IMG/VR virus record: IMGVR_UViG_3300020417_001646
Coordinates: 1-31,059 of that record
Reading direction: 5' to 3' (one strand)
Length of the DNA stretch: 31,059 bases
From: a virus
Of the stretch, positions 8,801 through 30,907 are shown one piece after another. The notes under the pieces are model-generated. The model had not been told where the DNA came from. It saw nothing but the letters and a program-made list of their open reading frames with translations, and did no database searches. Positions within the stretch are counted from its first letter, which is position 1. Each line of letters starts with the position of its first letter. The position numbers and the translations under genes are program-made.

Positions 8801-11800
8801 TGGGAAAAATCCCCAGAAAGATCTAACTTTAATGTTCTGCGAGTAGGTAAAGCAGGAGTTTCTACGGATGCTAAAGTAACTTTATCCGTTGACGAGCAAA
8901 CACCAACTAAAATATTCTACAAGTTAGATCCAGTATTTGAAAGTGATCTTCCTACAGAGAAAAATGAAATTTTTATTGACAATGAAGTTGCTTCAAATAA
9001 TGAAATTAAAGTAAGAGAAAGTGTATACAATGGTAAGCATACTGTTTCGATTGGATCGAGCACTCAGTTTAGTTACACAATAAGTGAAGTCCCCGAAAAG
9101 ACCTCTTATACTCCAGCTCCATCTAGATTGACATACGACACTGATTGTGAACATGCATATGGATCTATAGCGAAGTTTGACATTAAGAACCCAGGAAGAA
9201 ATTATTATTCATTACCAGGGATCTCAACAATCACAACTACAGTCGGTAAAAATGCGATTGTTGAAGCAGATAGTACAAATATCGGTGTTATCAAGAAAAC
9301 AAAGATCAATAACATTGGATTCAATTTCCCATCAGACAAAACTGTAAGACCAAATCTTGGTCTGGTTCAAATTATTGGTATTGATCCTTTAACTTCGATT
9401 GAATCTATCGGTATTACTTCTATTGGTAGAGGATACACTCAAGCACCAGGATTGCTTCTGTTTGATGGAAAAACCGATCAATTAATCGATGATGTTGATC
9501 TTAGATTTAAACTCGGAGATCCTCTTGTAACCATCTTTAAGAATACTACTGGAATATCAAATGTCACACCAAAAATTATTCCTGTAAACAACACTAATGG
9601 TGTTGGAATTAGCACCGTTGGATTTAATACAATTACTCAAGATGTCTCTGTTACTTTATCTCAAGGATTTAGTAGTAGTGATACCTTCCCATTTGAAGTT
9701 GGCAACAAAGTTCTTGTTGAGGGTATTAGTGTCGGTGTAGGATCTACTGGAAAGGGATACAACTCTGCAAACTATGATTACAAATTGTTTGAACTGACCG
9801 GGGTTGAACCAAACCTTGGTGGCATTGGAATTGTTACTTTTAGTTTGTCTGGACTCTTAAACGGTAAGGTCCCCGGTGCTTATGACACCATTAATTCTGC
9901 CGGAAGAATTATTCCTGAAAAATTCTTCCCATTGTTTGATGTTAAACTCAAGAAGAATGATTTCCTCGTTGGAGAAACTGTCGAACAAGGAAATATTACT
10001 GGAGTTGTTGAAGATTGGAATCCAAAGATTGAGGTCGTTAAAATTTCTTCTAATGCTTCCTTTACGTTTGATTCTATTATCAAAGGAAGATCTTCTAATA
10101 CTCAAGGAATTGCTTCCACTATCACGTCATTTGACTCTGATTTAAGCACTGAGGCTTCCTCTAGAGTGGAGAGTGGATGGCAAGATAATACTGGATTTAT
10201 TAATGATGATTTACAAAGAGTTCAAGATAGTTTCTACTATCAGAACTTCTCATATTCTCTGAAGTCCAGAGTTCCTCTGGATACCTGGGAAGACGCTGTT
10301 GGAAGTTTGAATCATACTTTAGGATTTAAAAAATTCTCTGATTATCAACTAGAAACTCCTGCTACCTTCCGAGAAATTTCTAATAATTCAATGGCAGTTG
10401 GATTAACCACTGCATTGACCAATTTCCAAGTTGTAACTGATATCATTGGAGTTGTTGATACACACTGCGTCTTTGATTTTGATCTTGTAAAAGAAAATGC
10501 TTTGGTTGGAGCAAGCGGAGTATTCTCAAATGAGATGATTTTCTCCAGTAGAATTCTGACAGATTTCTTTGAATCTGTAGGAAACAGAGTTCTTTCAATC
10601 GATGATATGAGTGGATCGTTCAATAGCAATCCACGTCCAACACCTTTCAGTATTGTAGCTCAATGGCCTCTGAATAAGAGACGTGCAATTAAGTATATCA
10701 CTTATGTTAGAGATAAGAGATTCGTAGCGCAAAGACAGGTTGTTATTGTTGATTTGGTTCATGATGATTCTAATGGATATATCAATCAATATGCTGCAGA
10801 ATCTACTGTCTATCCTCTTGGATCATTTGACTTCTCTATTGTTGGAACAGATGGAAAATTAGAATTCTATCCAAACAATTTTAAAGTTAATGACTACGAT
10901 GTCGTTGCAATTTCTTATAATCTTGATGATAATTTATTGAGCATTGGATCAACTCAACTGGGTCCTGCAAAAATTCAAACAAGTAGTGTAAGTTGTGTTG
11001 GTATTGCATCTACAACAATTGTTTCACTTGCAACAACATATAGATCTGCAAAAGTTCTCGCAAATATCACTGGTCCAAATAATGAGTTTGAAATGAATGA
11101 ACTGAACATCGTTCATGATGATACTGATGTTCACATTACCGAATATGGTAATTTGACTACCAACCTTGGTGGTTATGTTGCCGCTGGATTTGGTAGTTAT
11201 CATGCCAACATATCTGGATCAACTCTCAATGTTGATTTTATTCCTTTCATAGGAATCGCCGCTACAGTTAATACGATTCAAGTTGCTATCAGCACGGACT
11301 CTGTTTCTGGAGTATCTACCAGTGATTTAAAACATGCGAGATTAGAAGCTCGCACGACTGGAATTGCTTCTGCATCTTCCCCTGGTATTCATACAGTTGG
11401 AACATATCCAACCGTTTATGATGCTGCGTATTTTGTTGCTCAAGTTTCTGATACCACAAATAATACGTATCAGATGTCTGAATTAGTTCTGTTAGATGAT
11501 CATAATGCTGATCTGGGTACAGAACAAACTTACTTACTCGAATATGGAAACACTGAAACCGTCTCTGGACTAGGAACGTTTGGAGCACAAATGAATAGTG
11601 CCAAAACAGATGTTGAATTGATGTTTACACCTAACGCAGACATCACAACTCAAGTTAAGGTGTACATGAATGCTTTCAGAATTCAAGATGATGATAAAGA
11701 TCAAATAGAATTTGATAATGGTGTCATAGAAACATTTAATGGTGATTATGAAGGAACGGAGAGATCAATCAAGAGATCTTTCAACCTCACTCATAGAAAT

Positions 11801-14800
11801 AACGAGATCTTCAACCGTAGTTTTGAAGGAAATAATACTAGCATCGTTAAAGCATCTGAAAACTCCATTATTGTTCCAAATCACTTCTTTGTAACTGGTG
11901 AAGAAGTATCTTACGTCCATGCAGGTTCTGGAACTACCCAGGCAATTGGTATTGAAACAACTGATACCTTTGTCGGAATTGGAACAACAGATAAAGTTCC
12001 ATCTTCAGTATTCATTATCAAAGTCAATGAGGATACTGTCAAGTTAGCAGCAACTGCGGCAAATGCTCTCAAGGCCGTTCCTACTGTAATCGGAATCACT
12101 ACTGTTGGTATCGGAACATCTCATAGATTTGTTGCCAAGAATCAGAATGGTAAGTGTATCATTGCACTTGACAATATTATTCAATCACCTGTTGTTTCCA
12201 CGGCAACAACAACTGAACTTGCTAAGAGAGCGTTCACTACTGATGACATCTTAACGTTTACTGGAATTACATCATTCTTTGGTGGAGATCATATTAAGAT
12301 CGGTGACGAAATTATTAGAATTGAGGGTGTTGGAATTGGAAGCACCAACACAATCAGAGTTCGTAGACAACGACTTGGAACTTCACTGGCTGGTCACTCA
12401 ACCGGTGCTCTGGTCACAAAAGTCATCGGTAACTACAACATTGTAGAAAATACGCTGACGTTTGCTGAAGCACCATTTGGAAACATTCCTCTTGGAACAA
12501 GCACTAATCCGCCTGATGAAAGAGATTGGACTGGAATTTCTACATCATCCAGTTTCCAAGGTAGAACATTCTTACGTTCTGGTATTCAAGATAGTTCTAA
12601 TGAAACTTATCACGAAAACTATGTCTTTGATACTATTTCCGAACAATTTAATGGTGAAGAGAGAAACTTTGATCTTAAATCAAACGGTTCAGATGTAACT
12701 GGAATTGCCACAGACAATGCGGTCATTTTGATTAATGATATTTTCCAGGGTCCAGGACTTTCTCGCGATTATACCCTCAACGAAAATGCGGGTATTACAT
12801 CTATCAGATTCACTGGAACTGCTACTTCAATTAGCAGTGATGCTAATACATCCAATTTACCTCTCGGTGGCGTAATTGTTTCTGTTGGTTCAACCGAAGG
12901 TTTAGGATATCAACCTCTCGTTGCTGCCGGTGGAACTGCTGTTGTTTCTTCTGCTGGAACAATTACTTCCATCAGCATTGGAAACAGCGGGTCTGGATAT
13001 AGAGTTGGAGTTCAAACAGTTGTCAATGTTGCAGTTGCATCGTCTTCTCTGACAACTCCTGCTATTGAATTTATTGGAACTGCTGCAATTAGTGGTGGTA
13101 ACATTGTTAGCGTCGCCATTACAAATCCAGGGTCTGGATACAATCAAACTAATCCTCCAAGTGTTGTGTTTGATGATCCTCTCTCCTATAGTGATATTCC
13201 TCTGATTTACAGCACTAGTTCTAGCGGAACTGGTCAGGCTGCCACTGCTGATATTGTTGTTGGTCAAGGATCTAGTGTTATTGACTTTGAAATCAAAAAT
13301 ACTGGTTTTGGATATGGCAACGGTCAAATCTTGACTGTGGCTGCTGGTGGTTCTGCCGGTATTCCAACTTCAGGAACATTCAGAGAGTTTCAAATTGATA
13401 TTCAACAGGTATTCCATGATGAGTTCACGGGATGGGCGATTGGAACTTTACAATCTCTTGATGATATTTCTAATCTGTTTACAGGATCTAGAACTGCATT
13501 CCCACTTCAGGTTGGCGGAAATTCTATTTCTATTATCTCCGGTAAGGGATCTAACATTAACGTGCAGGACGTTCTTCTTGTATTCGTTAATGATATTCTA
13601 CAAGTTCCTGGAGAGGGTTATATATTTACAGGAGGAAGCACATTAACATTTACTGAAGCACCCAAAGTTGATGATACCGTTAAGATTCTGTTCTACAAAG
13701 GATCAGGTGATGTTGATGTTGTCTTTAGAAATATTATTGAAACTGTTAAAGTTGGCGATGAACTGACTATCAAGCATAGTCCTGATCTGGATCAACCTTC
13801 ATATATGACTGAAGATCCTCGCACTGTTGAAGTTGTCAAGTCAACAGATGTTGTTGGAACCAATAATTATTTCGGACCTGGCAATAATGCTGATACAGAA
13901 CTGGAGAGATCTGTTACATGGTGTCGCCAAACTGAAGATAAGATTATCAATGAAAAAGGTATTGGAAAAGATCGCGAACTGTATGAACCAGTAATTAATC
14001 CTTACGCATATATTATTCAATCCGTTGGTGTAGGATCAACTGCGATTTATGTTGACAATATTAGACCGTTCTTTAATCCAATCAATGAAAATGACACATC
14101 ACTGACTTTCCAAGATAAAGTTAAATTTAGAAATCAAGGAACAAAAGTTGGTGCTGCGGCAACTGCTGTGGTTTCTGTTGGTGGTACAATCTCATCCATC
14201 ACAATTTCAGATGGTGGATCTGGATATCTGACTGCGCCAACTGTAAGTATTGGTAATACTGTTGGAGTTGGAACAACGGCTTTGGCAACTGCCTCTATTA
14301 CTGCTGGTATTGTTACTGCAATTACTATTACTAATGCAGGAACTGGATATACTCAAGTCGATCCTCCAGAGGTATTGATTGCTCCACCAACAACGTTTGA
14401 GGAAGAAAACTCTGTTACTTCCTACGCAGGTGATTCTGGGGTCATCGTAGGATTTGGAACCACAACAGTCAGTAGCAATCCTCACATGATGTTTGATCTG
14501 TTTATCCCAAGAGATTCCTTCCTCAGAGATGGTAATGTAACTGGAGTGACGACAGTTAGTGGTATTGGAACTGGTGACTTCTTCGCCATCTATAATTCCA
14601 ACGTTGGATCTGCTACGACAACCTTGACAACTCTAGATGTTTCTGGTAATACGGTCGGAATTGGATCTTCCTTTATCGATAACGTTTATCAGGCACACTC
14701 TGTTGAGACAGTTAATATTAACGTAACTGGAATTGGATTCACTGATGTTCGCAGAGTATTCTCCAGAGTATCTGAGAACTTTAAGTTCGGTTCAACATCA

Positions 14801-14971
14801 GGAATTACAACCTCTCCTGAATTCGGGATATATAATTGGGGTAAGATTCTCCTTTCATCGAGATCTGGAGTTAACTCCTATACATCTTACACCAGTGGCG
14901 GCGTTGCAGGTATTGAAACTTCAACCATTGTTCAAAGATCTGCATCACTTAAATTTAAGAATTATACTTAA
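2861..14971 (+). CDS. 7: Giant gp7-like baseplate wedge protein (4036 aa)
   Basis: The position between gp6 and gp8 and an N-terminal domain mark this as gp7-like. At residues ~199-222, FYGSKGTDRSFEILFKALYN mirrors FYSTKGIEASYKFLFKVLYN near the C-terminal part of T4 gp7, as I remember it. T4 gp7 is 1032 aa, so this protein is about four times longer. Beyond the N-terminal ~260 residues it is a mosaic. H-G-x-x-T-G-D modules start near residues 596, 966, 1701, 1867 and 3006. G-S-G-Y modules start near 759, 1078, 1124, 1161, 3340-3503 and 3773-3847. A YHYH-like domain spans ~1262-1382. A tandem duplication occupies 2727-2940. A DSFYYQNFSYSLKS...LGFKKF block is at ~2455-2492, and the tail ends SLKFKNYT. 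No membrane segment is seen. AGGA at 2845-2848 is far (12 nt) from the ATG, and the gap lacks a late promoter, so it is probably cotranscribed with gp25-gp6. Confidence 0.85.
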   Translation: MSQKRVQINNVVQNQLPSYVREDYPLVSEFLKQYYLAQEFKGAPIDLIQNIDQYIKLEETTNLTDSVILYSDLEFDSETIEVDIGKSRTGTDGFPDSYGLLKIGDEIITYTGKTKTTFTGCIRGFSGVSSLKSDIDSESLVFDVTDAQDHDKGSTINNLSDLFLKQFLHKTKIQILPGFEDRSLSSDLNENLFIKQAKDFYGSKGTDRSFEILFKALYNERVEVVKPRDYLFTPSESLYKVTNDLVVEAVTGDPTELTESTLFQDAYLNIDRAYSPVTYVEKVISGIGQTYYKLSFDAGYNRDIGVKGATYGAFTVHPKTSLIDQVSTGATILNVDSTVGFAHSGELSVTYSDATIGVVSYTSKSIDQFFGCSLIEGTIKDGTSVGINTYAYGLSVKNPNEIIEVRVNSVLSQTNYPDNTRFYSKGDTARIKSLGVINNSFKSRNWFYNVAPTYEVSSVELIDASDQTYTVTLKRDHYFKIGDSASIIGPDNVEKNTTVIDTKSARSLVIKGQGALNVSLTYTIKRRILRGVSNTFAALSQYKTNVQNTYASGNKLLIASSSIPSYDSQPLDTTDRTATFSGSFVGSEFAISTIDDHGFYTGDAVYYTPQIVVESYNNVSTGSSDTRRVCKSSLFSADVGTLPGDTIPQNQGLYYVSRVNSTTVKLAKSKTDVFNNKFISLDDSVTVTDCKLTPYRLRLSEVKSQKLFREIDLPVDDGEKVNPTVPGTTGILINGVEILNYKSTDVVRHGRIENIEVISGGSGYDIIDPPTLNISDSIGVGASGNVAVSGSLEEIRVEDSGFDYLDTPIVTITGGNGTGARASVNMKLIEHSVNFNSESASSNVNLTDNTIGFGTFHKFRNVEQIIYKTEGQRGVGGIATNAVYYASTVNNTTVQLHNKLEDAIAGINTISLTAYGFGRHSLQSYNKKSVVESVNVISSGEGYQNKLRSTNPAGIVTSSNSINIENHDYQSGEIVVYTAQGTAAGGIVNGSRYVITREDENNFKLSSVGLGSTATNFYYNTNQYINLSNSGVGTHSFNYDAINVNLSGRIGISSIGGETFEATIQPIFRGEITSVHLNSKGVGYGSSEVINFDRQPNVELVTGKNAQLEVVVNNGKVAEVLVLNAGSGYNSTPDITIDGDGIGAVLCPVVSNGQITSVNVLESGTGYLQGSTTASIEPTGSGAVFNSNLQNWRFNLFARNLEKFTGDDGYITSGRDGNQYAHLYAPRNLREVVFSVDQDGSILYGNPDLKKVSGTEVSSTDHSPIIGWAYDGNPIYGPYGYLTKTGGTIAQMKSSYKEEASTKENRPSLSSFPAGFFIEDYTFVKVTDETFLDENNGRFCITPEYPNGTYAYFATVNDSTSDTSGSFSGFRRPVFPYLIGENYKSVPNPFNFTNNSNQDSIDLNETTYLRNTDPLNLIEGDVRYSYLPLPNDLNQTVDVTAVSPGTVQSIGINTGGDLYRVGDKIVFDNNGTQGSGADARVSRVKGKQVSSVSFATSSITGLEVAPGLKGNYTLIADNPHQLQDQNLIVVSGVSTTSSRIEGSYVAGITTNTLTVAGFGTTSSGIGTDGVTGIVTFFNVTGNLLNFRENDILTVGSERVRILNVDNTLSRIRVLRSIDGTTGAAHTVTTVLTQNPRTISITAGFNTSYSYKANRQLYFNPTESVAIGTAGGVGVGTTIAISNPGAGVTQVFVPNRSVYIPNHGLETGDQLTYSPNAGSGIELLHDTASGITTLSNSTTLFVAKLNSDLIGLSTVRVGLGTTGTFVGIASTEKTSSTVFFTGFGTGVYHSLKTNYSVITANVDRSEVTVATASSHGLHSNHSVFVDVNPSNTGVSTIKYNDYNRRLVIDPLSFTAAGVNTSTNVFTIANHGFVTGQKIIHTATTPSAGLSDQAMYYIIKVDTNTFKLANSYHESLQLKPEIVGVTSASAGTINPVNPPITLYTDSTTTFDLTDTSLSYTKLSTRYPAFELNFYLDENFNTPWEKSPERSNFNVLRVGKAGVSTDAKVTLSVDEQTPTKIFYKLDPVFESDLPTEKNEIFIDNEVASNNEIKVRESVYNGKHTVSIGSSTQFSYTISEVPEKTSYTPAPSRLTYDTDCEHAYGSIAKFDIKNPGRNYYSLPGISTITTTVGKNAIVEADSTNIGVIKKTKINNIGFNFPSDKTVRPNLGLVQIIGIDPLTSIESIGITSIGRGYTQAPGLLLFDGKTDQLIDDVDLRFKLGDPLVTIFKNTTGISNVTPKIIPVNNTNGVGISTVGFNTITQDVSVTLSQGFSSSDTFPFEVGNKVLVEGISVGVGSTGKGYNSANYDYKLFELTGVEPNLGGIGIVTFSLSGLLNGKVPGAYDTINSAGRIIPEKFFPLFDVKLKKNDFLVGETVEQGNITGVVEDWNPKIEVVKISSNASFTFDSIIKGRSSNTQGIASTITSFDSDLSTEASSRVESGWQDNTGFINDDLQRVQDSFYYQNFSYSLKSRVPLDTWEDAVGSLNHTLGFKKFSDYQLETPATFREISNNSMAVGLTTALTNFQVVTDIIGVVDTHCVFDFDLVKENALVGASGVFSNEMIFSSRILTDFFESVGNRVLSIDDMSGSFNSNPRPTPFSIVAQWPLNKRRAIKYITYVRDKRFVAQRQVVIVDLVHDDSNGYINQYAAESTVYPLGSFDFSIVGTDGKLEFYPNNFKVNDYDVVAISYNLDDNLLSIGSTQLGPAKIQTSSVSCVGIASTTIVSLATTYRSAKVLANITGPNNEFEMNELNIVHDDTDVHITEYGNLTTNLGGYVAAGFGSYHANISGSTLNVDFIPFIGIAATVNTIQVAISTDSVSGVSTSDLKHARLEARTTGIASASSPGIHTVGTYPTVYDAAYFVAQVSDTTNNTYQMSELVLLDDHNADLGTEQTYLLEYGNTETVSGLGTFGAQMNSAKTDVELMFTPNADITTQVKVYMNAFRIQDDDKDQIEFDNGVIETFNGDYEGTERSIKRSFNLTHRNNEIFNRSFEGNNTSIVKASENSIIVPNHFFVTGEEVSYVHAGSGTTQAIGIETTDTFVGIGTTDKVPSSVFIIKVNEDTVKLAATAANALKAVPTVIGITTVGIGTSHRFVAKNQNGKCIIALDNIIQSPVVSTATTTELAKRAFTTDDILTFTGITSFFGGDHIKIGDEIIRIEGVGIGSTNTIRVRRQRLGTSLAGHSTGALVTKVIGNYNIVENTLTFAEAPFGNIPLGTSTNPPDERDWTGISTSSSFQGRTFLRSGIQDSSNETYHENYVFDTISEQFNGEERNFDLKSNGSDVTGIATDNAVILINDIFQGPGLSRDYTLNENAGITSIRFTGTATSISSDANTSNLPLGGVIVSVGSTEGLGYQPLVAAGGTAVVSSAGTITSISIGNSGSGYRVGVQTVVNVAVASSSLTTPAIEFIGTAAISGGNIVSVAITNPGSGYNQTNPPSVVFDDPLSYSDIPLIYSTSSSGTGQAATADIVVGQGSSVIDFEIKNTGFGYGNGQILTVAAGGSAGIPTSGTFREFQIDIQQVFHDEFTGWAIGTLQSLDDISNLFTGSRTAFPLQVGGNSISIISGKGSNINVQDVLLVFVNDILQVPGEGYIFTGGSTLTFTEAPKVDDTVKILFYKGSGDVDVVFRNIIETVKVGDELTIKHSPDLDQPSYMTEDPRTVEVVKSTDVVGTNNYFGPGNNADTELERSVTWCRQTEDKIINEKGIGKDRELYEPVINPYAYIIQSVGVGSTAIYVDNIRPFFNPINENDTSLTFQDKVKFRNQGTKVGAAATAVVSVGGTISSITISDGGSGYLTAPTVSIGNTVGVGTTALATASITAGIVTAITITNAGTGYTQVDPPEVLIAPPTTFEEENSVTSYAGDSGVIVGFGTTTVSSNPHMMFDLFIPRDSFLRDGNVTGVTTVSGIGTGDFFAIYNSNVGSATTTLTTLDVSGNTVGIGSSFIDNVYQAHSVETVNINVTGIGFTDVRRVFSRVSENFKFGSTSGITTSPEFGIYNWGKILLSSRSGVNSYTSYTSGGVAGIETSTIVQRSASLKFKNYT
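3147..3255 (+). repeat. G-D-E-I...R-G module, gp7 copy 1
   Basis: This segment encodes KIGDEIITYTGKTKTTFTGC followed by IRGFSG (residues ~102-128 of the gp7-like protein). It is the clearest copy of a module that recurs at 12280-12430, 22915-23110 and 27958-28157. A related, more diverged copy follows at about 3840-4040 (TILNVDSTVGFAHSGELSV, then YTSKS and FFGCS). Confidence 0.7.
4640..4910 (+). repeat. H-G-x-x-T-G-D module, gp7 copy 1
   Basis: The segment encodes DDHGFYTGDAVYYTPQ and ends with GLYYVSRVNSTTVKLAKS. The pattern is HG-x2-TGD-x-V-x-Y, then YYV-x2-V-x3-T-x-KLA. It recurs at 5755-5895, 7955-8160, 8450-8610 and 11870-12125. Similar repeats occur in phage tail proteins and have been likened to E1 FCCH-type beta domains (from memory). 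Confidence 0.65.
5113..5338 (+). repeat. G-S-G-Y modules, gp7 cluster A
   Basis: Two adjacent copies encode IEVISGGSGYDIIDPPTLNI and IRVEDSGFDYLDTPIVTITG. The pattern is I-x-V-x2-GGSGY-x3-PP-x-V-x-I, followed by a Gly/Ala-rich strand such as GGNGTGARASV. This is the first of four clusters in the gp7-like gene. Confidence 0.7.
6070..6420 (+). repeat. G-S-G-Y modules, gp7 cluster B
   Basis: Three consecutive copies encode LNSKGVGYGSSEVINF, LNAGSGYNSTPDITIDG and VLESGTGYLQGSTTASIEP. Between the copies lies the strand pattern VVSNGQITSVNV, the typical second half of the module. Confidence 0.7.
6641..7010 (+). other. YHYH-like domain embedded in gp7-like protein
   Basis: Residues ~1262-1382 read HSPIIGWAYDGNPIYGPYGY, then after a spacer FLDENNGRFCITPEYPNG-TYAYFAT, then FPYLIGENY. 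This order of motifs is that of the YHYH family (PF14240 from memory), whose signature is a Tyr-His-Tyr-His stretch after a PxGxY-like element. Here the equivalent stretch is TYAYFAT, so the histidines of the name motif are missing. The role of the family is not established. The domain is flanked by G-S-G-Y modules on both sides. Confidence 0.7.
7955..8160 (+). repeat. H-G-x-x-T-G-D module, gp7 copy 3
   Basis: The segment encodes NHGLETGDQLTYSPNAGSGI followed by TLFVAKLNSDLIGLSTV. It fits the same scheme as the copy at 4640-4910. A degenerate neighbour, SSHGLHSNHSVFVDV, follows at about 8294-8338. Confidence 0.6.
8450..8610 (+). repeat. H-G-x-x-T-G-D module, gp7 copy 4
   Basis: The segment encodes ANHGFVTGQKIIHTATTPSA followed by MYYIIKVDTNTFKLANSYHE. 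Both halves of the module are intact, including the closing KLA-x-S. Confidence 0.65.
11039..11677 (+). repeat. Tandem ~127-residue duplication in gp7-like protein
   Basis: Two consecutive units, 11039-11295 and 11417-11677, align as diverged copies. YRSAKVLANITGPNNEFEMN pairs with YDAAYFVAQVSDTTNNTYQM, LNIVHDD pairs with LVLLDDH, ITEYGN pairs with LLEYGN, and LNVDFIP pairs with VELMFTP. Starts are 378 nt apart, and the NN-[E/T]-[F/Y]-x-M-[N/S]-E-L anchors about 381 nt apart. The units look like beta domains and do not match the other modules in this protein. Confidence 0.75.
11870..12125 (+). repeat. H-G-x-x-T-G-D module, gp7 copy 5
   Basis: The segment encodes PNHFFVTGEEVSYVHAGSG followed by VFIIKVNEDTVKLAATAANA. 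The glycine of HG is replaced by Phe, but the rest of the pattern is kept. Confidence 0.6.
12280..12430 (+). repeat. G-D-E-I...R-G module, gp7 copy near residue 3146
   Basis: The segment encodes HIKIGDEIIRIEGVGIGSTN, then TIRVRRQRLGTSLAGHSTG. It shows the full scheme: I-G-D-E-I-I, then a strand ending in V-R-R, then a G-T-x5-H-x2-G element. Confidence 0.65.
12719..13705 (+). repeat. N-D-I-x-Q-x-P-G modules, two copies
   Basis: The copies are at 12719-12835 (VILINDIFQGPGLSRDYTL, then ITSIRFTG) and about 13570-13705 (LVFVNDILQVPGEGYIFTGG, then LTFTEAPKVDDTVKILFY). The pattern is V-x-x-N-D-I-x-Q-x-P-G, a Tyr strand, then F-T-x-A-P-x2-D-x3-I-x-F-Y. It resembles repeats I recall from phage tail fibres. 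The region between the copies holds G-S-G-Y cluster C. Confidence 0.6.
12880..13372 (+). repeat. G-S-G-Y modules, gp7 cluster C
   Basis: Four copies encode TEGLGYQPLVAAGG, IGNSGSGYRVGVQTVVNV, ITNPGSGYNQTNPPSVVF and IKNTGFGYGNGQILTVAAGG. Connecting strands of the SSAGTITSISI and ISGGNIVSVAI type separate them. This is the densest cluster in the gp7-like gene. Confidence 0.75.
14155..14400 (+). repeat. G-S-G-Y modules, gp7 cluster D
   Basis: Two copies encode ISSITISDGGSGYLTAPTVS and VTAITITNAGTGYTQVDPPE. They are joined by a VGVGTTALATASITAG strand. The cluster lies about 190 residues before the C-terminus of the gp7-like protein. Confidence 0.75.
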
Positions 14972-15007: not shown

Positions 15008-16561
15008 ATGGCTGCCATTATAACTGATCAGATTAGAATATTAAATGCCAAGAACTTTGTTTCGGGTATAGGGTCTGCGAATAATGCATATTATTCTTTT
15101 ATTGGACTTCCCAACCCTACCGAAATTCAAAGTGATTGGGATTCTGATCCGCCATCTCCAAAAGATAGTTTTAATGAAGAGAACAATTATTGGGACACAA
15201 TTATTGCTCTCAAGAAAATTAATTCATCTGATGTAAGACAGGTTGTTCCTAAGAGATCTTGGTCTTCTGGAACGACATATGACATGTATCGTCATGATTA
15301 TAGCAGAACTAACACTGCTAAAGTTTCTGGTGCAACTAATCTGTACGCAGCAAACTATTATGTCTTAAATAGTGACTTCAGAGTTTATATTTGTTTAAAC
15401 AACGGAATTGATCCGGACAATCCAAATGGCAAACCGTCATTGGATGAACCAACGTTTACTGATCTAGAACCAAGATCAGCTGGAACTAGTGGTGATGGAT
15501 ATATTTGGAAATATCTGTTTACGATCAAACCAAGCGATATCGTTAAGTTTGATTCTACAGATTTTATGCCAGTTCCAGGAGATTGGACAACTGGCACTGA
15601 TAACTCTTCAGTTAGAGATAATGCAGTTGATGGATCTATTAAGATCGCAACTATCACAGATCGTGGAGTTGGTGTAGGAACTGCTAATTTAACTTATACT
15701 AGAGTTCCCATCAAAGGAGATGGATCAGGTGCAGAGTGTACGATTGTTGTTAATAATGACCAGCAAGTTGAAACCGTAACTATTTCTAATCAAGGATCTG
15801 GTTACACTTATGGTAACATTGATTTAGTTGCTGGTGGAGTTCCAACAGGAACAACCAGACCAACTTTTGATGTGATTATTTCACCAAAGGGCGGACATGG
15901 TGCTGATATTTACCGAGAGTTGGGTGCATATAATGTTCTCCTTTATTCTAGAATTGAAAATGATATTGAAAACCCAGATTTCATAACAGGAAATCAAATT
16001 GCAAGAGTTGGTGTTGTTGAGAATCCAGAAGCATTTGGATCTTCAGCAAACTTAGATTTGGATAAAGCAAGTGCTGTACCTGCCTTAAAATTAACTGGAA
16101 TTGGTTATAGCACAGCAACATTTACTGCTGATGCTTTTATTACTCAAACTGTTGCCACTGGATCAACTGCTGTTGGTAGAGTCATTAATTACGATCAAAC
16201 TACAGGAGTTCTAAAGTATTGGCAAGATAGAACTTTGGTTGGATTTAACACTGTTGGAACTGCACAAACTAATCCTACATATGGATTTGATTTGGTTGAA
16301 TTTACCAGCACACCAGACACTGGTGGAAGCGTCACAATTGTCCCGTCAACTGGGTCTAATTTGGCAATTGATACATCCTTCACAGGTCTCTCAACAGTAA
16401 TAAATAGTAGGACGTATTATCTTGGTCAATCATTTACTGATGGTATTGCGTCCCCAGAGGCTAAGAAATACTCTGGAAATATCATATACGTTGACAACAG
16501 ACCATCTATCACTAGATCGTCTAATCAAAAAGAAGATATCAAAGTTATTTTGCAGTTCTAA
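15008..16561 (+). CDS. 8: Baseplate wedge subunit gp8
   Basis: This 517-residue protein matches the gp8 wedge subunit, which dimerises in the T4 baseplate and contacts gp7 and gp10. Landmarks shared with remembered T4 gp8 (334 aa) occur in order: the N-terminal NAYYSFIGLPNPTEI region, QVVPKRSW (T4 has VIPRRDW) at ~78-85, GDGYIWKYLFTIKP (T4 GDGYVWEYLFEI) at ~162, and GNIIYVDNRPSI...QKEDIKVILQF at the C-terminus. The ~180 extra residues lie in the middle. They contain a G-S-G-Y module at ~262 (ISNQGSGYTYGNIDLV) and an S-G-A-type module at ~370-415. It has its own late promoter, and the next gene starts 6 nt after its stop. Confidence 0.92.
   Translation: MAAIITDQIRILNAKNFVSGIGSANNAYYSFIGLPNPTEIQSDWDSDPPSPKDSFNEENNYWDTIIALKKINSSDVRQVVPKRSWSSGTTYDMYRHDYSRTNTAKVSGATNLYAANYYVLNSDFRVYICLNNGIDPDNPNGKPSLDEPTFTDLEPRSAGTSGDGYIWKYLFTIKPSDIVKFDSTDFMPVPGDWTTGTDNSSVRDNAVDGSIKIATITDRGVGVGTANLTYTRVPIKGDGSGAECTIVVNNDQQVETVTISNQGSGYTYGNIDLVAGGVPTGTTRPTFDVIISPKGGHGADIYRELGAYNVLLYSRIENDIENPDFITGNQIARVGVVENPEAFGSSANLDLDKASAVPALKLTGIGYSTATFTADAFITQTVATGSTAVGRVINYDQTTGVLKYWQDRTLVGFNTVGTAQTNPTYGFDLVEFTSTPDTGGSVTIVPSTGSNLAIDTSFTGLSTVINSRTYYLGQSFTDGIASPEAKKYSGNIIYVDNRPSITRSSNQKEDIKVILQF
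15720..15850 (+). repeat. G-S-G-Y module in gp8
   Basis: The segment encodes GDGSGAECTIVVNNDQQVET followed by VTISNQGSGYTYGNIDLVAG. It is a single complete copy of the module found in gp7, gp14 and the DUF4815 protein, placed in the part of gp8 that exceeds T4 length. Confidence 0.65.
16110..16260 (+). repeat. V-x-G-x-x-S-G-A-type module in gp8
   Basis: The segment encodes FITQTVATGSTAVGRVINYD, then TGVLKYWQDRTLVGFNTVG. The scheme, also seen in gp14 and the DUF4815 protein, is a short strand with V-x-x-G-S/T-x-A-x-G-x-V, then D-x-x-T-G-x-L and a second strand. Confidence 0.5.
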
Positions 16562-24921: not shown

Positions 24922-25767
24922 ATGGCGCAACCTTCCAATAGACAAGAACTAATTGATTACTGCAAAAGGCAGCTGGGTGCTCCAGTCCTGGAAATTAATG
25001 TTGCCGATGAGCAAGTAAGTGATTTAGTTGATGATGCGCTACAGTATTTTCAAGAGAGACATTTTGATGGTGTCATACAGACATATCTGAAATATAAAGT
25101 TACTCAAGCAGATATTGACAGAGGAAGAGCGAGAGGAAATAATCAAACTGCAGGAATCACCACTTCAAGTGCCACATCTAGTATTGATGGATCTAATGTA
25201 ACTTTTGAATTTGAAGAGAACAGCAACTACTTAGAAGTTCCTCCAGCAGTTATTGGAATCAATAAAGTTTTTAGATATGACGGATCTAATACTGCCACTA
25301 ACAATATGTTTAGTGTCAAGTATCAGTTGTTCCTAAATGACATGTATTTCTTTGGGTCGATGGAACTACTGTCTTATGCAATGACAAAAACATATTTGTC
25401 AGATATTGATTATCTGTTGAATACAGAAAAACAAATTAGGTTTAACCAAAGACAAAACAGATTATATCTTGATGTTGACTTTGGAGCATTATCAAAGGAT
25501 GACTACCTAGTCATTGATTGTTGGAGAATTGTAGATCCTGCTGATTTTTCGAGAGTTTATAATGATTCATTTTTGAAGAGATATCTCACTGCACTAATCA
25601 AACGGCAGTGGGGTCAAAATATGATGAAGTTCCAGGGAGTAAAACTTCCAGGTGGTATTGAACTAAATGGCCGTCAAATTTATGATGATGCAGAAAAAGA
25701 TTTAGAAATAATTAGAGAGCAAATGTCCAATACTTACGAAATTCCCCCTCTTGACTTTATAGGATAA
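24922..25767 (+). CDS. 13: Neck protein gp13
   Basis: This 281-residue protein corresponds to T4 gp13 (309 aa), which with gp14 completes the head and forms the neck that receives the tail. The N-terminus SNRQELIDYCKRQLGAPVLE, followed by INVADEQVSDLVDDALQYFQ and ERHFDG, is characteristic of marine T4-like gp13. The gene order gp13-gp14-gp15-gp16 supports the call. It has its own late promoter. The C-terminal third (RYLTALIKRQWGQNMMKFQG) is also typical. No repeat modules are inserted, unlike the two genes that follow. The TAA overlaps the gp14 ATG by one base. Confidence 0.9.
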   Translation: MAQPSNRQELIDYCKRQLGAPVLEINVADEQVSDLVDDALQYFQERHFDGVIQTYLKYKVTQADIDRGRARGNNQTAGITTSSATSSIDGSNVTFEFEENSNYLEVPPAVIGINKVFRYDGSNTATNNMFSVKYQLFLNDMYFFGSMELLSYAMTKTYLSDIDYLLNTEKQIRFNQRQNRLYLDVDFGALSKDDYLVIDCWRIVDPADFSRVYNDSFLKRYLTALIKRQWGQNMMKFQGVKLPGGIELNGRQIYDDAEKDLEIIREQMSNTYEIPPLDFIG

Positions 25768-27215
25768 TGCTCAATCCATTCTTTACTCAAGGCACATCGT
25801 CTGAACAGAACCTTGTTCAGGATTTGATCAACGAGCAGTTGAGGATGTATGGTGTTGATATTTTTTATCTACCCAGAAAATATGTAACTCAAAAAAGTAT
25901 TATAAAGGAAGTAGTTCAGTCAACATTTGATACTGCTCTACCTCTTGAGGCATATGTTGACAACTATGATCAGTATTCTGGAGCTGGTAATCTTCTAACG
26001 AAGTTTGGAATTCAATCTCAAGATGAAGTTAGATTGATTATCTCTAGAGAGAGATTTGAAAATTATATTACGCCACTGATTGAAGATCAAGCAAATATAA
26101 AACTATCGACAAGACCAAAGAGTGGAGATTTGATTTGGTTCCCTCTAGACGATAGAGTTTATGAAATCAAAGATATTGAATACGCAAAACCATATTATCA
26201 ATTACAAGATCTTTACATCTATGAATTATATTGCGAACTCTTCCGCTATGAGGATGAGGTTATTGCAACCGGCATTGACGAGATTGATAATAATCTGGTA
26301 GGTGATGATTCTGATGGACTCACTGATGATGGAATCAATACGATTCAAGGTGTAACGCAAACACTTACTCTGGTTGGAACTGGGGCAACGGCAACTGCAA
26401 TTACTGGTATTGTAACCTCTGGTGGTGTTAGATTGATTACCATTACTAACAGAGGATCTGGATACATCGGTATTCCTACTGTCGGGGTCTCCTCTGCACC
26501 AAGTGGAGGAACGACAGGAATTGCAACTGTTGGTCAAGTGATCGGTGGTATTGTTGTCTGTAATAATAGTGCCAATCCAAGATCTAGATCTATTCAAAGA
26601 GTTGACATTTCAAATCCGGGTGCCGGATATACTATTGCACCAGGAATTCGTTTCATTGGTGGTAGTGGAGTTGGTGCTGCTGCAACATCTAAGATTGGAG
26701 ACGGTGTTGTTGGAGTTGTTACAGTTCAATCTGGTGGATCTGGATACACCACATCACCAACTATTACATTTAATGACGAAGTATTCTTATCTGGCGTTAC
26801 CACCGTCTCAGCGGCAGCCACAGCGGTCCTGAGTGCCTCTGGAAGCATCTCTGCTATCAATTTGACTAACGCAGGTCTTGGATACAGTTCTATCGGCAGC
26901 ATCACCATTTCTGCACCAGATATGGATTCTTCTGGCGATTTCATATTCAACGAAATTGTCACAGGATCTCTGAGTGGCACCACTGGTAGGGTTAGAACTT
27001 GGGATTCAACTACAAACATATTAGAGGTCGCATCTGTTAGCGGAACCTGGACACACGGAGAAGATATTGTTGGCGCAACTTCGGGTGCAAGTCATGCTCT
27101 CAGAATTATTAATCTCGAACCAGACAATGATGAGTATGCAGATAATCTCGATATTGAGAACGCTGCAGACAATATTCTTGACTTCTCTGAACAGAATCCT
27201 TTCGGAATTCCCTAA
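25767..27215 (+). CDS. 14: Neck protein gp14 with inserted repeat modules
   Basis: The first ~185 residues (MLNPFFTQGTSSEQNLVQDL, then YGVDIFYLPRKYV and GDLIWFPLDDRVYEIKDIEY) are the gp14 neck protein core, which in T4 (256 aa) joins gp13 at the head-tail junction. The last ~35 residues (NAADNILDFSEQNPFGIP) look like the conserved end. Between them, residues ~200-445 consist of four G-S-G-Y modules (~230, ~283, ~323, ~368) and one S-G-A module (~397-442). Without this insert about 230 residues remain, near T4 length. The insert is Gly/Ser/Thr/Ile-rich and probably projects outward from the neck. The start is coupled to the gp13 stop (TAATG), with AGGA just upstream. The stop overlaps the gp15 late promoter. 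Confidence 0.88.
   Translation: MLNPFFTQGTSSEQNLVQDLINEQLRMYGVDIFYLPRKYVTQKSIIKEVVQSTFDTALPLEAYVDNYDQYSGAGNLLTKFGIQSQDEVRLIISRERFENYITPLIEDQANIKLSTRPKSGDLIWFPLDDRVYEIKDIEYAKPYYQLQDLYIYELYCELFRYEDEVIATGIDEIDNNLVGDDSDGLTDDGINTIQGVTQTLTLVGTGATATAITGIVTSGGVRLITITNRGSGYIGIPTVGVSSAPSGGTTGIATVGQVIGGIVVCNNSANPRSRSIQRVDISNPGAGYTIAPGIRFIGGSGVGAAATSKIGDGVVGVVTVQSGGSGYTTSPTITFNDEVFLSGVTTVSAAATAVLSASGSISAINLTNAGLGYSSIGSITISAPDMDSSGDFIFNEIVTGSLSGTTGRVRTWDSTTNILEVASVSGTWTHGEDIVGATSGASHALRIINLEPDNDEYADNLDIENAADNILDFSEQNPFGIP
26365..26930 (+). repeat. G-S-G-Y modules in gp14
   Basis: Four copies encode ITITNRGSGYIGIPTVGV, VDISNPGAGYTIAPGIRFIG, VTVQSGGSGYTTSPTITF and INLTNAGLGYSSIGSITISA. Linker strands such as GSGVGAAATSKIGDGVVGVV separate them. 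They make up most of the extra length of this neck protein compared with T4. Confidence 0.8.
26940..27105 (+). repeat. V-x-G-x-x-S-G-A module in gp14
   Basis: This is the cleanest copy of the module: FNEIVTGSLSGTTGRVRTWD, then TNILEVASVSGTWTHGEDIV and GATSGASHALRI. The scheme is a V-x-G-x-x-S-G-[TA]-x-G-x-V-x-x-[WY]-D half followed by a second G-x-x-S-G-A half. It bridges the G-S-G-Y modules and the conserved gp14 C-terminus. Confidence 0.65.
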
Positions 27216-27241: not shown

Positions 27242-28243
27242 ATGTTTGAGTACTTTTACAACGAGATTTTAAGGAGGACGATTATTGCTTTCGGAACGCT
27301 TTTTAATGCGATTACGATCAAGCAAGAAAACTCCGTTGTAAGAGTTCCATTAGCATACGGACCAACACAAAAGTTTTTAGCGAGAATTGAGCAGTCACCT
27401 GATCTGAACAAACCGACTGCAATTACGCTTCCAAGAATGTCGTTTGAGTTTACCGGATTGACATACGATCCATCTAGAAAAGTTACCACGACTCAACAGT
27501 TCATGGTAAAAAATCCAGATGATGGATCGGATATTAAAAAATCGTATATGCCGGTTCCATATAATATGCAATTTGAATTGTCTATTATGTGTAAATTGAA
27601 TGATGACGCTCTTCAAATTGTAGAACAGATTCTTCCATATTTTCAACCATCATATAATCTTACAGTTGAATTAGTAGAAGCAATAAAAGAGAAAAGAGAT
27701 ATACCAGTGGTGTTGGAAAACATCACAATGTCTGATGAGTATGAAGGCGATTTTACATCCAGAAGAGTTCTTCTTTATACTCTGAGATTTACAGCAAAAA
27801 CTTACATGTTTGGTCCTACAACTGCGGCTACCAAAGATGTTATCAAGAAGGCAACCGTCAACTATCTCACTGGCACCGATACAACAAATACCATCAGAGA
27901 AGTTTCTTATTCCTCTTATCCAAGAGCGATCAAAAATTACACTGGGGATATTACTACGAACCTAACATCAGATGTTGGTCTATCACAAAAAACCTTTGAA
28001 GTTGAAGATGGACATGGACTTGTCAAAAATGACTACATTGACGTTGGTGGTGAGGAGATGAAGATTAGAACTGTTAATGGTAATAAGTTGAGTGTCATTA
28101 GAGGAGAAGATAATACTCAAATTATATCTCACCTCAGAGGAGATCCGGTCAAGAAGATCACCTTTGATGCTAACTCAACAACGACAGACAATGCTCTCAT
28201 TGAAGAGGGTGACGACTTTGGATTTAGTGGATCTTACAACTGA
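27242..28243 (+). CDS. 15: Tail sheath stabilizer / tail completion protein gp15
   Basis: This 333-residue protein matches T4 gp15 (272 aa), the hexameric terminator that caps the contractile tail and sheath and docks it to the neck. MFEYFYNEILRRTIIAFGTL parallels T4 MFGYFYNSSFRRYATLMGDL, and LQIVEQILPYFQPSYN parallels FQIVEQILPYFQPHFN (T4 as remembered). Residues ~240-307 form an insertion of the G-D-E-I...R-G type (EVEDGHGLVKNDYIDVGGEE, then LSVIRGEDNTQIISHLRGDP). Without it the length is about 265, near T4. The TGA overlaps the gp16 ATG by one base. Confidence 0.93.
   Translation: MFEYFYNEILRRTIIAFGTLFNAITIKQENSVVRVPLAYGPTQKFLARIEQSPDLNKPTAITLPRMSFEFTGLTYDPSRKVTTTQQFMVKNPDDGSDIKKSYMPVPYNMQFELSIMCKLNDDALQIVEQILPYFQPSYNLTVELVEAIKEKRDIPVVLENITMSDEYEGDFTSRRVLLYTLRFTAKTYMFGPTTAATKDVIKKATVNYLTGTDTTNTIREVSYSSYPRAIKNYTGDITTNLTSDVGLSQKTFEVEDGHGLVKNDYIDVGGEEMKIRTVNGNKLSVIRGEDNTQIISHLRGDPVKKITFDANSTTTDNALIEEGDDFGFSGSYN
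27958..28157 (+). repeat. H-G and G-E-E...R-G module in gp15
   Basis: The segment encodes FEVEDGHGLVKNDYIDVGGE, then EMKIRTVNGNKLSVIRGEDN and TQIISHLRGDPVKKI. It combines an H-G-L start with the strand pattern ending in V-I-R-G and a closing H-x-x-G element, as in copies in gp7 (12280-12430) and the DUF4815 protein (22915-23110). It lies near the C-terminus of gp15, where T4 gp15 has no counterpart that I know. Confidence 0.65.
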
Positions 28244-28703: not shown

Positions 28704-30656
28704 ATGTCTAGAGAGGATTTACCTTCTATAGATGAGTTCGTTGAATCTAACGAACTTCCATCAGTTGAAGACGCAATAATTGAAGAAGAGTTACCCTCTA
28801 TTGATGATTACATAGAGCAAGAAGAAATTGTCGAAGAGATAGTAGAAGAACCTGAGATCGCAGAAGATTTAGATCTCACAGAAGTTCTCCGTCTCATTAA
28901 TGACGTAAGAAGAGATATACCGGATGTTCCGGAGATCAAATATTATGATGAAGAACTAAAAGCACTTGCGGAGCAAGTTAGTCAAATCTCTGGTTCTATA
29001 CCAGAGGTAAAGTATTATGATAACGAAGTAGAGGCTATTTGTGATCAGATTGATCTGGTCAAGGAGCAGATTAAAGATCTGCCCGAAGTAAAATATTATG
29101 ATGAGCAAGTTGGTGTCATTGAAGATAGAATTGATAATCTTCAAACTGCACTAGCAAATCTACCTGAAGTAAAATATTACGATGCTGAAATTGAAGCAAT
29201 TTGCGACGCAGTTGATGCGGTAAAGGCATCAATTCCCAAGTTCCCCAAATGGGTCAATGAAGTTAATGAAGTCCCTGATTTTTCATGGATCGGAAAAACA
29301 TTTAGTGTAATTGATGATGACTTCACTAAAGTAGGCGATAGTATTCAAGAGATCAAGAATAAGATCAACTATGAGGTTCAAGAACTCACAGAGTCAATAA
29401 GCACGAAGGACTTTGAGACCAGAGTTGATATAAAAGAAATTACAGAAAACTTAGAAAATACTAAGAACAAAATATATGAAGAGTTAAAAGAAACTGCGAT
29501 TAAGATTTGGGATCATCATCATGAATTTAAAGATGATGATAGAAAATTAAAGAAACAAATCCTAAGTCATTATAATTCTCTAAAACAAAACGTTAATAAA
29601 CAGGTTCTTGAACTTAGAGAAAAAACATATGAATCTGATAAAGAAATCAGTGAGAAGTTTTTAAATTACTTTGACAATTTAAAAGATGAAATTGCTTCTT
29701 TGCCAGAAGTAAAATATTATGATGATGACGTTATTGGACTCAGAAAAAATCTTTCAGAGTTAACTAAAAAGTTTGATTCTCACGTAATCAATATTGCTGA
29801 GTTATACAAGATTGTTAATGATTTAAAAGGAACTCAGCAAGATTTGACTGAAAGTTTAGCAGAACCTGCTAACACAAAACAAGGTCAAGATCCATTAACA
29901 CCAACGGATCAAAACTTTGCAACACTTGATGATCTTCAAAAACATTACAGATTATTTGTTGGTAGAATACAAGAACAGATCGCTGCACTAGGTGGCGGTG
30001 GTGAAACTAAACTACAATATCTTGATGACATTGTTGGCATAGCAACTAACCTGGATGCCTATGATGGAATGTATCTCCAAGTCGATGTTGGACTTGGAAG
30101 AACTAGTGGTCATAGTTTTAAATTTTCTGAGGTAACAGTTGGTGCAGCAGGAACTTGGGCTGCAACTGCTGCTGGTATTCATACCACCAAAAACGTCGGT
30201 ATTGCTACCACAGCAAGATCAGAATATTCTTTATACGTTGGAAGATCTTCGACAGCAGGTGCTGGATCTTCAATCGTTGCATATTTTGAAGGTGATGTTT
30301 CTATCGCAGGAACAGTATTCAAAGAAAACATTCAGAACGTTGATTCTATTGGAGTTGTCACCGCGAGAAGTGGCATTAACGTAGGATATGATTATCTTGG
30401 TGGTCCTGGTGTAGGTGCCACCATTGAGGCAAATGGAAATGCTAATTTTGCTGGAGTAGTAACATCTACTAATCTTCAAGTTTCTACTCTGTTTACTCCA
30501 CCAGTTTTAACAACCGCTCAGCGAGTTGGTCTTTCCACTTTAGAAGGATCAATGATATATAATAGCACAGATAAAAAGATGCAATTCTTTGACGGAACGT
30601 CTTGGAATGATCTTGGCGGTGTATCTCTCGGACTTGCTATCGCATTAGACGGATAA
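28704..30656 (+). CDS. Coiled-coil fibre-like virion protein (650 aa)
   Basis: The gene lies between gp16 and the expected gp17 site, where marine T4-like phages often carry a large virion gene. Residues 6-36 contain three LPS[IV][DE][DE] units at an exact 12-residue period in a very acidic N-terminus. Residues 76-165 hold four tandem PE[IV]KYYD repeats (starts 76, 100, 127, 154), and a fifth is at 334. Coiled-coil-like heptads run through ~85-170 and ~205-400. After a GGGGE hinge near residue 430 comes a beta-rich C-terminal region with VVTARSGINVG and GSMIYNSTDKKMQFFDGTSW, which resembles the ends of phage fibre proteins. A trimeric fibre or whisker, comparable in shape to T4 fibritin, is a plausible role but is inferred. 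The TAA overlaps the next ATG by one base. Confidence 0.75.
   Translation: MSREDLPSIDEFVESNELPSVEDAIIEEELPSIDDYIEQEEIVEEIVEEPEIAEDLDLTEVLRLINDVRRDIPDVPEIKYYDEELKALAEQVSQISGSIPEVKYYDNEVEAICDQIDLVKEQIKDLPEVKYYDEQVGVIEDRIDNLQTALANLPEVKYYDAEIEAICDAVDAVKASIPKFPKWVNEVNEVPDFSWIGKTFSVIDDDFTKVGDSIQEIKNKINYEVQELTESISTKDFETRVDIKEITENLENTKNKIYEELKETAIKIWDHHHEFKDDDRKLKKQILSHYNSLKQNVNKQVLELREKTYESDKEISEKFLNYFDNLKDEIASLPEVKYYDDDVIGLRKNLSELTKKFDSHVINIAELYKIVNDLKGTQQDLTESLAEPANTKQGQDPLTPTDQNFATLDDLQKHYRLFVGRIQEQIAALGGGGETKLQYLDDIVGIATNLDAYDGMYLQVDVGLGRTSGHSFKFSEVTVGAAGTWAATAAGIHTTKNVGIATTARSEYSLYVGRSSTAGAGSSIVAYFEGDVSIAGTVFKENIQNVDSIGVVTARSGINVGYDYLGGPGVGATIEANGNANFAGVVTSTNLQVSTLFTPPVLTTAQRVGLSTLEGSMIYNSTDKKMQFFDGTSWNDLGGVSLGLAIALDG
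28719..28811 (+). repeat. 12-residue LPSID repeats
   Basis: Three units start at residues 6, 18 and 30: LPSIDEF, LPSVEDA and LPSIDDY. The period is exactly 36 nt. The units are highly acidic and could be short linear docking motifs for a virion partner. Confidence 0.8.
28929..29723 (+). repeat. PE[VI]KYYD heptapeptide repeats
   Basis: The heptapeptide begins at 28929, 29001, 29082, 29163 and 29703. The first four are 24, 27 and 27 residues apart and separated by coiled-coil segments. The fifth lies 180 residues downstream. The proline at each start probably breaks the helix and the paired tyrosines may pack between chains. Confidence 0.85.
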
Positions 30657-30907
30657 TGAAAACTCTCAAAATTTTTCTAGAAATAGCAGAAGGTGTTGGT
30701 GTAGGCACCACAACCACAAAGTATTACGGAAGCAGGTACTTCGGTGGAGGACACTCTAACAAAAACGGTAATGGCCACAGTAACGGTAACGGAAGTTCTA
30801 ACGGAAATGGGAACTCTGGGAATGGTAATGGAAATGGTAATGGGGGCAATGGCGGTAACGGTGGTAACGGTGGCGGCAATGGTGGTAATGGGGGGAATGG
30901 GGGATGA
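30656..30907 (+). CDS. Gly/Asn-rich low-complexity small protein (83 aa)
   Basis: The first ~30 residues are ordinary (MKTLKIFLEIAEGVGVGTTT, then KYYGSRYFGGG). The remaining ~50 are almost wholly Asn, Gly and Ser (NGNGNGG-type repeats). The DNA is a GGYAAYGGY-type repeat ending in runs of five or six G. No family is recognised. The ATG overlaps the preceding TAA by one base, and the TGA overlaps the next ATG (ATGA), so translation is probably coupled on both sides, which argues for a real gene. The repeat invites length variation between isolates. It could be a disordered virion tail or a vestige, but this is unknown. Confidence 0.65.
   Translation: MKTLKIFLEIAEGVGVGTTTTKYYGSRYFGGGHSNKNGNGHSNGNGSSNGNGNSGNGNGNGNGGNGGNGGNGGGNGGNGGNGG
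30772..30903 (+). repeat. G-rich Asn/Gly codon repeat
   Basis: Imperfect tandem GGTAAYGGY units rise in G content towards the 3' end, with GGGGG and GGGGGG runs. Multiple closely spaced GG and GGG tracts on the + strand could form two-layer G-quadruplexes in mRNA or DNA. It is the strongest composition break in an otherwise AT-rich window. Confidence 0.75.

Follow-up and report, generated by a model that had tools for sequence, protein, structure and literature searches.

A modular beta-rich insert of variable length in the neck protein gp14 of cyanomyoviruses, probably facing outwards

Head-sealing neck proteins are commonly seen as conserved components of assembly, and the gp14 gene studied here raises the question of what some 250 residues of repeat modules are doing in the middle of one, and where on the particle they sit. 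The gene lies in a 31,059-nucleotide IMG/VR fragment (the window, meaning the whole stretch of DNA analysed), which comes from a Bellamy-like cyanomyovirus of the Kyanoviridae and has the gene order gp13-gp14-gp15-gp16, as in T4.

Conserved and inserted parts of gp14

The gp14 open reading frame (25767-27215, + strand, as are all features below with coordinates in gp14) encodes 482 residues with 79% identity to gp14 of Synechococcus phage Bellamy. Pfam T4_neck-protein (PF11649) matched residues 2-195 with an E value of 2e-27 and 96.5 bits against a cut-off of 25, and the head-closure (Hc2) family phrog_460 matched with an E value of 1.6e-123, extending over part of the insert as well. The alignment with the T4 gp14 chains in the PDB (9mkb and 9lu4) was limited to residues 2-168, and Foldseek aligned the protein with 9mkb at 32% identity across 178 columns. 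These matches make gp14 an ordinary head-closure (stopper) protein of the T4 type; gp14 of its relatives is already annotated as 'neck protein', and the family is a known one.

The beta-barrel stopper core covers residues 1-176 (25767-26294; PF11649, phrog_460/679, 9mkb and 9lu4), with a median pairwise identity of 66% among 88 homologues. It is followed by a variable acidic linker (residues 177-196, 26295-26354), recognized by 82% gaps at residues 181-190 of the homologue alignment and by pLDDT values of 44-52 at residues 171-190. At the other end is a conserved C-terminal peptide (residues 447-482, ..ADNILDFSEQNPFG.., 27105-27215 including the stop), the motif of which was found in 402 of 405 complete gp14s. 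The counterpart of this region in T4, gp14 residues 178-256, docks on gp15 residues 203-245 (PMC12270204). Between linker and peptide lies the insert, residues 197-446 (26355-27104), which is absent in gp14 of Sinorhizobium phage phiN3 (217 aa) and T4-like RB33 (256 aa). A frame or assembly artefact was excluded, as the insert is part of a single intact reading frame, is identical in gp14 of three further environmental contigs and is kept in hundreds of relatives.

A previous sequence-only reading had described a repeat insertion at 26365-27105 between two conserved gp14 parts, in good agreement with the boundaries found here. Its two-part layout, a core of residues 1 to ~190 and a tail of ~446-482, also stands, although the core ends nearer residue 176. 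Core and tail together come to ~212 aa, which is nearer the 217 aa of phiN3 than the T4 length of 256 aa that had been suggested. The count of four repeat modules plus one S-G-A module was right as well, but the motif is better written GxGY, since a literal GSGY occurs in two of the four units only.

The insert begins with a half-unit (strand region 197-219) ahead of four GxGY units of ~42 residues each, namely unit 1 (residues 220-259, GSGY, 26424-26543, 33.6 bits with the unit HMM), unit 2 (275-316, GAGY, 26589-26714, 36.3 bits), unit 3 (316-360, GSGY, 26712-26846, 27.1 bits) and unit 4 (360-388, GLGY, 26844-26930, 24.5 bits). A single SGA domain (residues 388-446, 26928-27104, 91.9 bits with the domain HMM) adjoins the tail. 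The unit model was built from 88 aligned relatives and has the consensus GVTAITITNGGSGYTSAPTVTISSPPGGGATATGIATIG; the insert scored 100 bits with it against -11 for the best of 1000 shuffles, a comparison that is partly circular as the model contains the window sequence. The GxGY glycines are invariant or near-invariant across the 88 homologues, and the insert matched further virion repeat families in PHROGs. On these three grounds the GxGY repeat is judged not to be a chance pattern. Relatives of the modules belong to families of tail fibres, baseplate wedges and virion structural proteins; the virion proteins of PHROGs 460, 701, 5342 and 708 are all repeat-bearing, and 701, 5342 and 708 have the same GxGY repeat as the gp14 insert. 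The insert is less conserved than the core (median pairwise identity 44% compared with 66%), and it has evolved faster in 99.8% of the homologue pairs.

The repeat has no name in Pfam or NCBIfam, and PF11649 was the sole Pfam match of the window gp14, with no lectin-fold domain found in its insert. No credible solved relative of the insert or the repeat was found (best E value 0.9), and Foldseek against the PDB at E < 0.001 returned T4 gp14 alone and nothing for the insert. AlphaFold predicted a beta-rich insert with pLDDT values mostly of 83-96 over residues 200-450 and a weak loop near 261-270; the pTM of the monomer was 0.51, so that the predicted orientation of the insert relative to the core is uncertain.

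Number, gain and exchange of modules among relatives

We collected 520 distinct complete gp14s using seven gp14 queries, a census in which class frequencies do not represent environmental abundances. Across the set the core and tail were constant and the insert varied, giving lengths from 292 to 1109 aa. One copy of the SGA domain adjoined the tail in all of the cyanophage gp14s. Zero GxGY units were present in 109 gp14s (the 292-310 aa class) and two units in 58 (~370-390 aa); four units characterized most of the 450-500 aa class, and 6-10 units were found in longer proteins, up to 1109 aa. Outside two lectin-type classes the count was 0, 2, 4, 6 or 8, being even in 436 of 441 gp14s, and each of the five odd counts was accompanied by a weak extra unit below threshold. 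Judging by these even counts, a pair of units (~85 residues) is the working quantum of the insert. Counts were less regular in the lectin-type classes (~760 aa and >1000 aa). In the ~760 aa class, the sister S-SSM7 class, a LamG (ConA-like) domain lay between the units in all 28 of the 28 members tested, an assignment made from Pfam alone and with a pLDDT of 44 for the LamG-like domain in AlphaFold.

The SGA domain was absent from the T4-like and Sinorhizobium gp14s, and from those of two marine Vibrio T4-like phages as judged by their length (276 and 224 aa); one of the latter genes adjoins a fibritin gene. In phiN3 gp14 there is almost nothing between the core and the tail ILDFSDMDPY, which makes it a natural near-empty site. 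When 50,697 phage records were searched by tblastn, the 104 records matched by the insert were confined to those of cyanophages and marine single-cell viruses, and the 174 phage records with the SGA domain were likewise all of these two kinds. On the point that the sequence-only reading had wished to see checked, some relatives have the insert and others lack it, its copy number differs between them, and far from having identical length in all marine T4-like gp14s it ranged from zero to about ten units.

Modules have been gained and lost within lineages. In the zero-unit S-PM2 lineage, one subclade has gained a unit pair, located inside the SGA domain, and within that subclade the pair is missing again from the gp14 of contig L340 but present in that of L473, with cores 85% identical. 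Similarly, L612 and L658 have six and four units respectively with cores 92.6% identical, and L638 and L640, the cores of which are 98.9% identical, differ by an 88-aa module inside the lectin-like region. The L638 gp14, at 1109 aa among the longest, has GxGY units at both ends, and its lectin-like middle is interrupted by a GGTNYY module missing in L640. Two insertion contexts were seen overall, one upstream of SGA and the other, in one group, nested inside it. The core of S-CAM4 is 71% identical to that of zero-unit S-PM2 and 41% identical to that of Syn33, whereas its unit pair is 75% identical to the Syn33 pair (Fisher 1e-6). This combination of an S-PM2-like core with a Syn33-like pair indicates, from sequence comparison, that modules have been exchanged between lineages by recombination. 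On a core-only tree the insert class has to change 16 times or more, a number that is approximate as the tree was a quick one with long outgroup branches. The window's own clade had four units throughout.

Neighbouring proteins and placement of the insert

The upstream gene encodes the head-tail adaptor gp13 (Ad2, 24922-25767, + strand, 281 aa; phrog_211, E value 7.5e-50). Aligned with gp13 of T4-like RB33, neither the window gp13 nor those of cyanophages were found to contain the segment of T4 domain III, which is the site of fibritin binding in T4 (PMC12270204). No match to a wac gene was obtained in the 31-kb window, which is part of a genome, in a search run without a positive control. In the S-CAM9 clade, gp13 (373-382 aa; 1371-2492 in contig L090) contains an insertion of its own, ~95 aa long and rich in GVGTTS-like repeats, at a site that differs from the T4 domain III position.

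Downstream, the tail-sheath stabilizer gp15 (27242-28243, + strand, 333 aa; PF16724, E value 8e-86) has a ~70-aa C-terminal insertion (27890-28180, ..SQKTFEVEDGHGLVKNDYIDVGGEEMKIRTVNGNKLSVIRGEDN..) that, by alignment, is present in many cyanophages and missing in T4, P-SSM2 and S-PM2. This extension accompanied 69 of 74 gp14s of more than four units, 145 of 225 of four units (80 were without it), 40 of 97 of zero units and none of 50 of two units. Strict coupling between the gp14 insert and the gp15 extension was not found, the correlation with unit number being loose. Elsewhere in the window, gp8 (15008-16561, 517 aa) is well above T4 gp8 size, enlarged by a related repeat region; its residues ~195-434 matched the gp14 insert with an E value of 2e-9, and Pfam Phage-Gp8 matched in two stretches. 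GxGY units, about seven in number, also occur in a 4036-aa protein (2861-14971), some of them close to the C-terminus, and a short reading frame (30656-30907) encodes a Gly/Asn/His/Ser low-complexity stretch (HSNKNGNGHSNGNGSSNGNG).

In T4, the part of gp14 past residue 177 has no ordered structure until the tail joins, and in the virion it docks on gp15 (PMC12270204); the cyanophage insert lies in the arm equivalent to this docking arm. Packing into the interior, where the insert would line the neck channel or plug it as a DNA gate, has a precedent in the stopper loops of T4 gp14, which gate the channel (PMC12270204), but the stopper-loop region belongs to the conserved core, and the span from core to tail ranges from about 60 to 900 residues. 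Using channel widths of 40-56 Å (PMC12270204 and PMC12886913, the latter giving 40 Å for phage 812), we estimated that six 250-aa inserts, ~200,000 Å3 in all, would fill a 40-Å channel for ~160 Å, and DNA must pass. We consider interior packing extremely improbable. Because six inserts exceed the channel volume and several hundred further residues are tolerated, the insert very probably projects outwards from the neck, as the sequence-only reading had supposed in speaking of surface modules.

Possible roles and comparison with known systems

The explanation we favour, and think probably correct, is that the insert forms an outward-facing beta-module collar built into gp14 itself, an evolvable neck decoration. 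gp14 would be expected in six copies at the head-tail joint, and the cyanomyovirus arm between the beta-barrel and the gp15-docking peptide would hold an array of one SGA domain common to all, GxGY units added in twos and, in some lineages, LamG. We infer that six such arrays ring the neck as a collar in phages with a gp13 that lacks the fibritin-binding domain. The most likely role would be weak surface or glycan binding and/or the seating of folded tail fibres, with a stabilized stopper-terminator joint as a by-product. Binding is favoured by the lectin-like domain, by modules common to fibres and baseplate and by recombination; however, the constant four units of the window lineage would suit a structural role equally well, and a function in binding or fibre seating is a tentative proposal, somewhat short of an even chance. 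In Anabaena phage A-1(L) a carbohydrate module of the neck fibres showed no host binding (PMC10966104), so a position on the neck does not imply adhesion. The putative role as adhesin or collar decoration raised by the sequence-only reading is thus hinted at indirectly, through LamG in the sister class, modules common to tail fibres and baseplate, recombination and the loss of gp13 domain III. The more far-reaching idea of a head-closure protein turned evolvable display collar, whose exchangeable modules, among them GxGY pairs, SGA and LamG, replace fibritin whiskers and aid attachment to hosts or particles while the stopper ring stays conserved, seems rather unlikely at present.

A purely structural brace, in which modules on the outside would pack onto gp15 and the sheath's first ring and reinforce the neck without external binding, is about as doubtful. 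It would account for the position of the insert in the arm used by T4 gp14 for docking on gp15 (PMC12270204), for the four units kept across the window's lineage and for the frequency of the gp15 extension with gp14s of four or more units, but the zero- and two-unit classes and the 80 four-unit gp14s without the extension show how loose that coupling is. A brace accords poorly with nested modules and with size changes of whole modules where the cores are almost the same, and the LamG domains suggest binding. Such a brace would act in the manner of the stopper/terminator decoration proteins of phage 812, and it is in its favour that the necks of phage 812 are often deformed in particles without this decoration (PMC12886913). 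Less likely again is that the GxGY repeats are recombination-prone passengers, spread among virion proteins and tolerated at permissive surface loops with no specific function. Several virion proteins, in this cyanophage and in others, do contain repeats of the same families, and the units are paired and mobile between lineages; against this, the glycines are conserved, the unit number is near-constant in the large four-unit clade to which the window belongs, and no cyanophage gp14 of the census lacks the SGA domain.

Returning to the collar built into gp14, a targeted search of the open literature found no evident description of the modular variation of the cyanophage insert. In these very abundant marine viruses the length of gp14 varies almost fourfold via module exchange while the ring and docking parts are fixed. 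If displayed, the modules would give the virion a hexameric surface element in addition to its fibres and baseplate and could affect attachment, fibre folding and neck strength; gp14s of 0, 2, 4, 6 and 8 units offer a natural series with which to test display. The sequence-only reading had called surface modules on the neck unusual, which overstates the case, as Kyanoviridae commonly have a large gp14 and decorated necks are on record for T4 (fibritin), A-1(L) and phage 812, and also for Milano.

T4 gp14 (Hc2) resembles the window gp14 in core fold and sequence, in gene order 13-14-15-16 and in its acidic ..PF.. C-terminal peptide, but has 256 rather than 482 aa and neither SGA domain nor GxGY units. 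T4 fibritin (gpWac) makes up the whiskers and collar on the neck exterior, where the gp14 insert would also sit; it is, however, a separate trimeric fibre on gp13 domain III, whereas the cyanophage decoration would be part of gp14. The phage 812 stopper (PMC12886913) has an external beta-sandwich domain and a decoration at the stopper-terminator joint that resemble the extra domain of gp14. Phage 812 is a Staphylococcus phage of another virus family with separate decoration proteins, and we found no variable repeat array in its description. Finally, the Anabaena myophage A-1(L) is, like the phages studied here, a cyanobacterial myophage, and has bead-like neck appendages, but its neck fibres are the separate proteins gp80-82 on a 15-mer adaptor and not an insertion in the stopper (PMC10966104).
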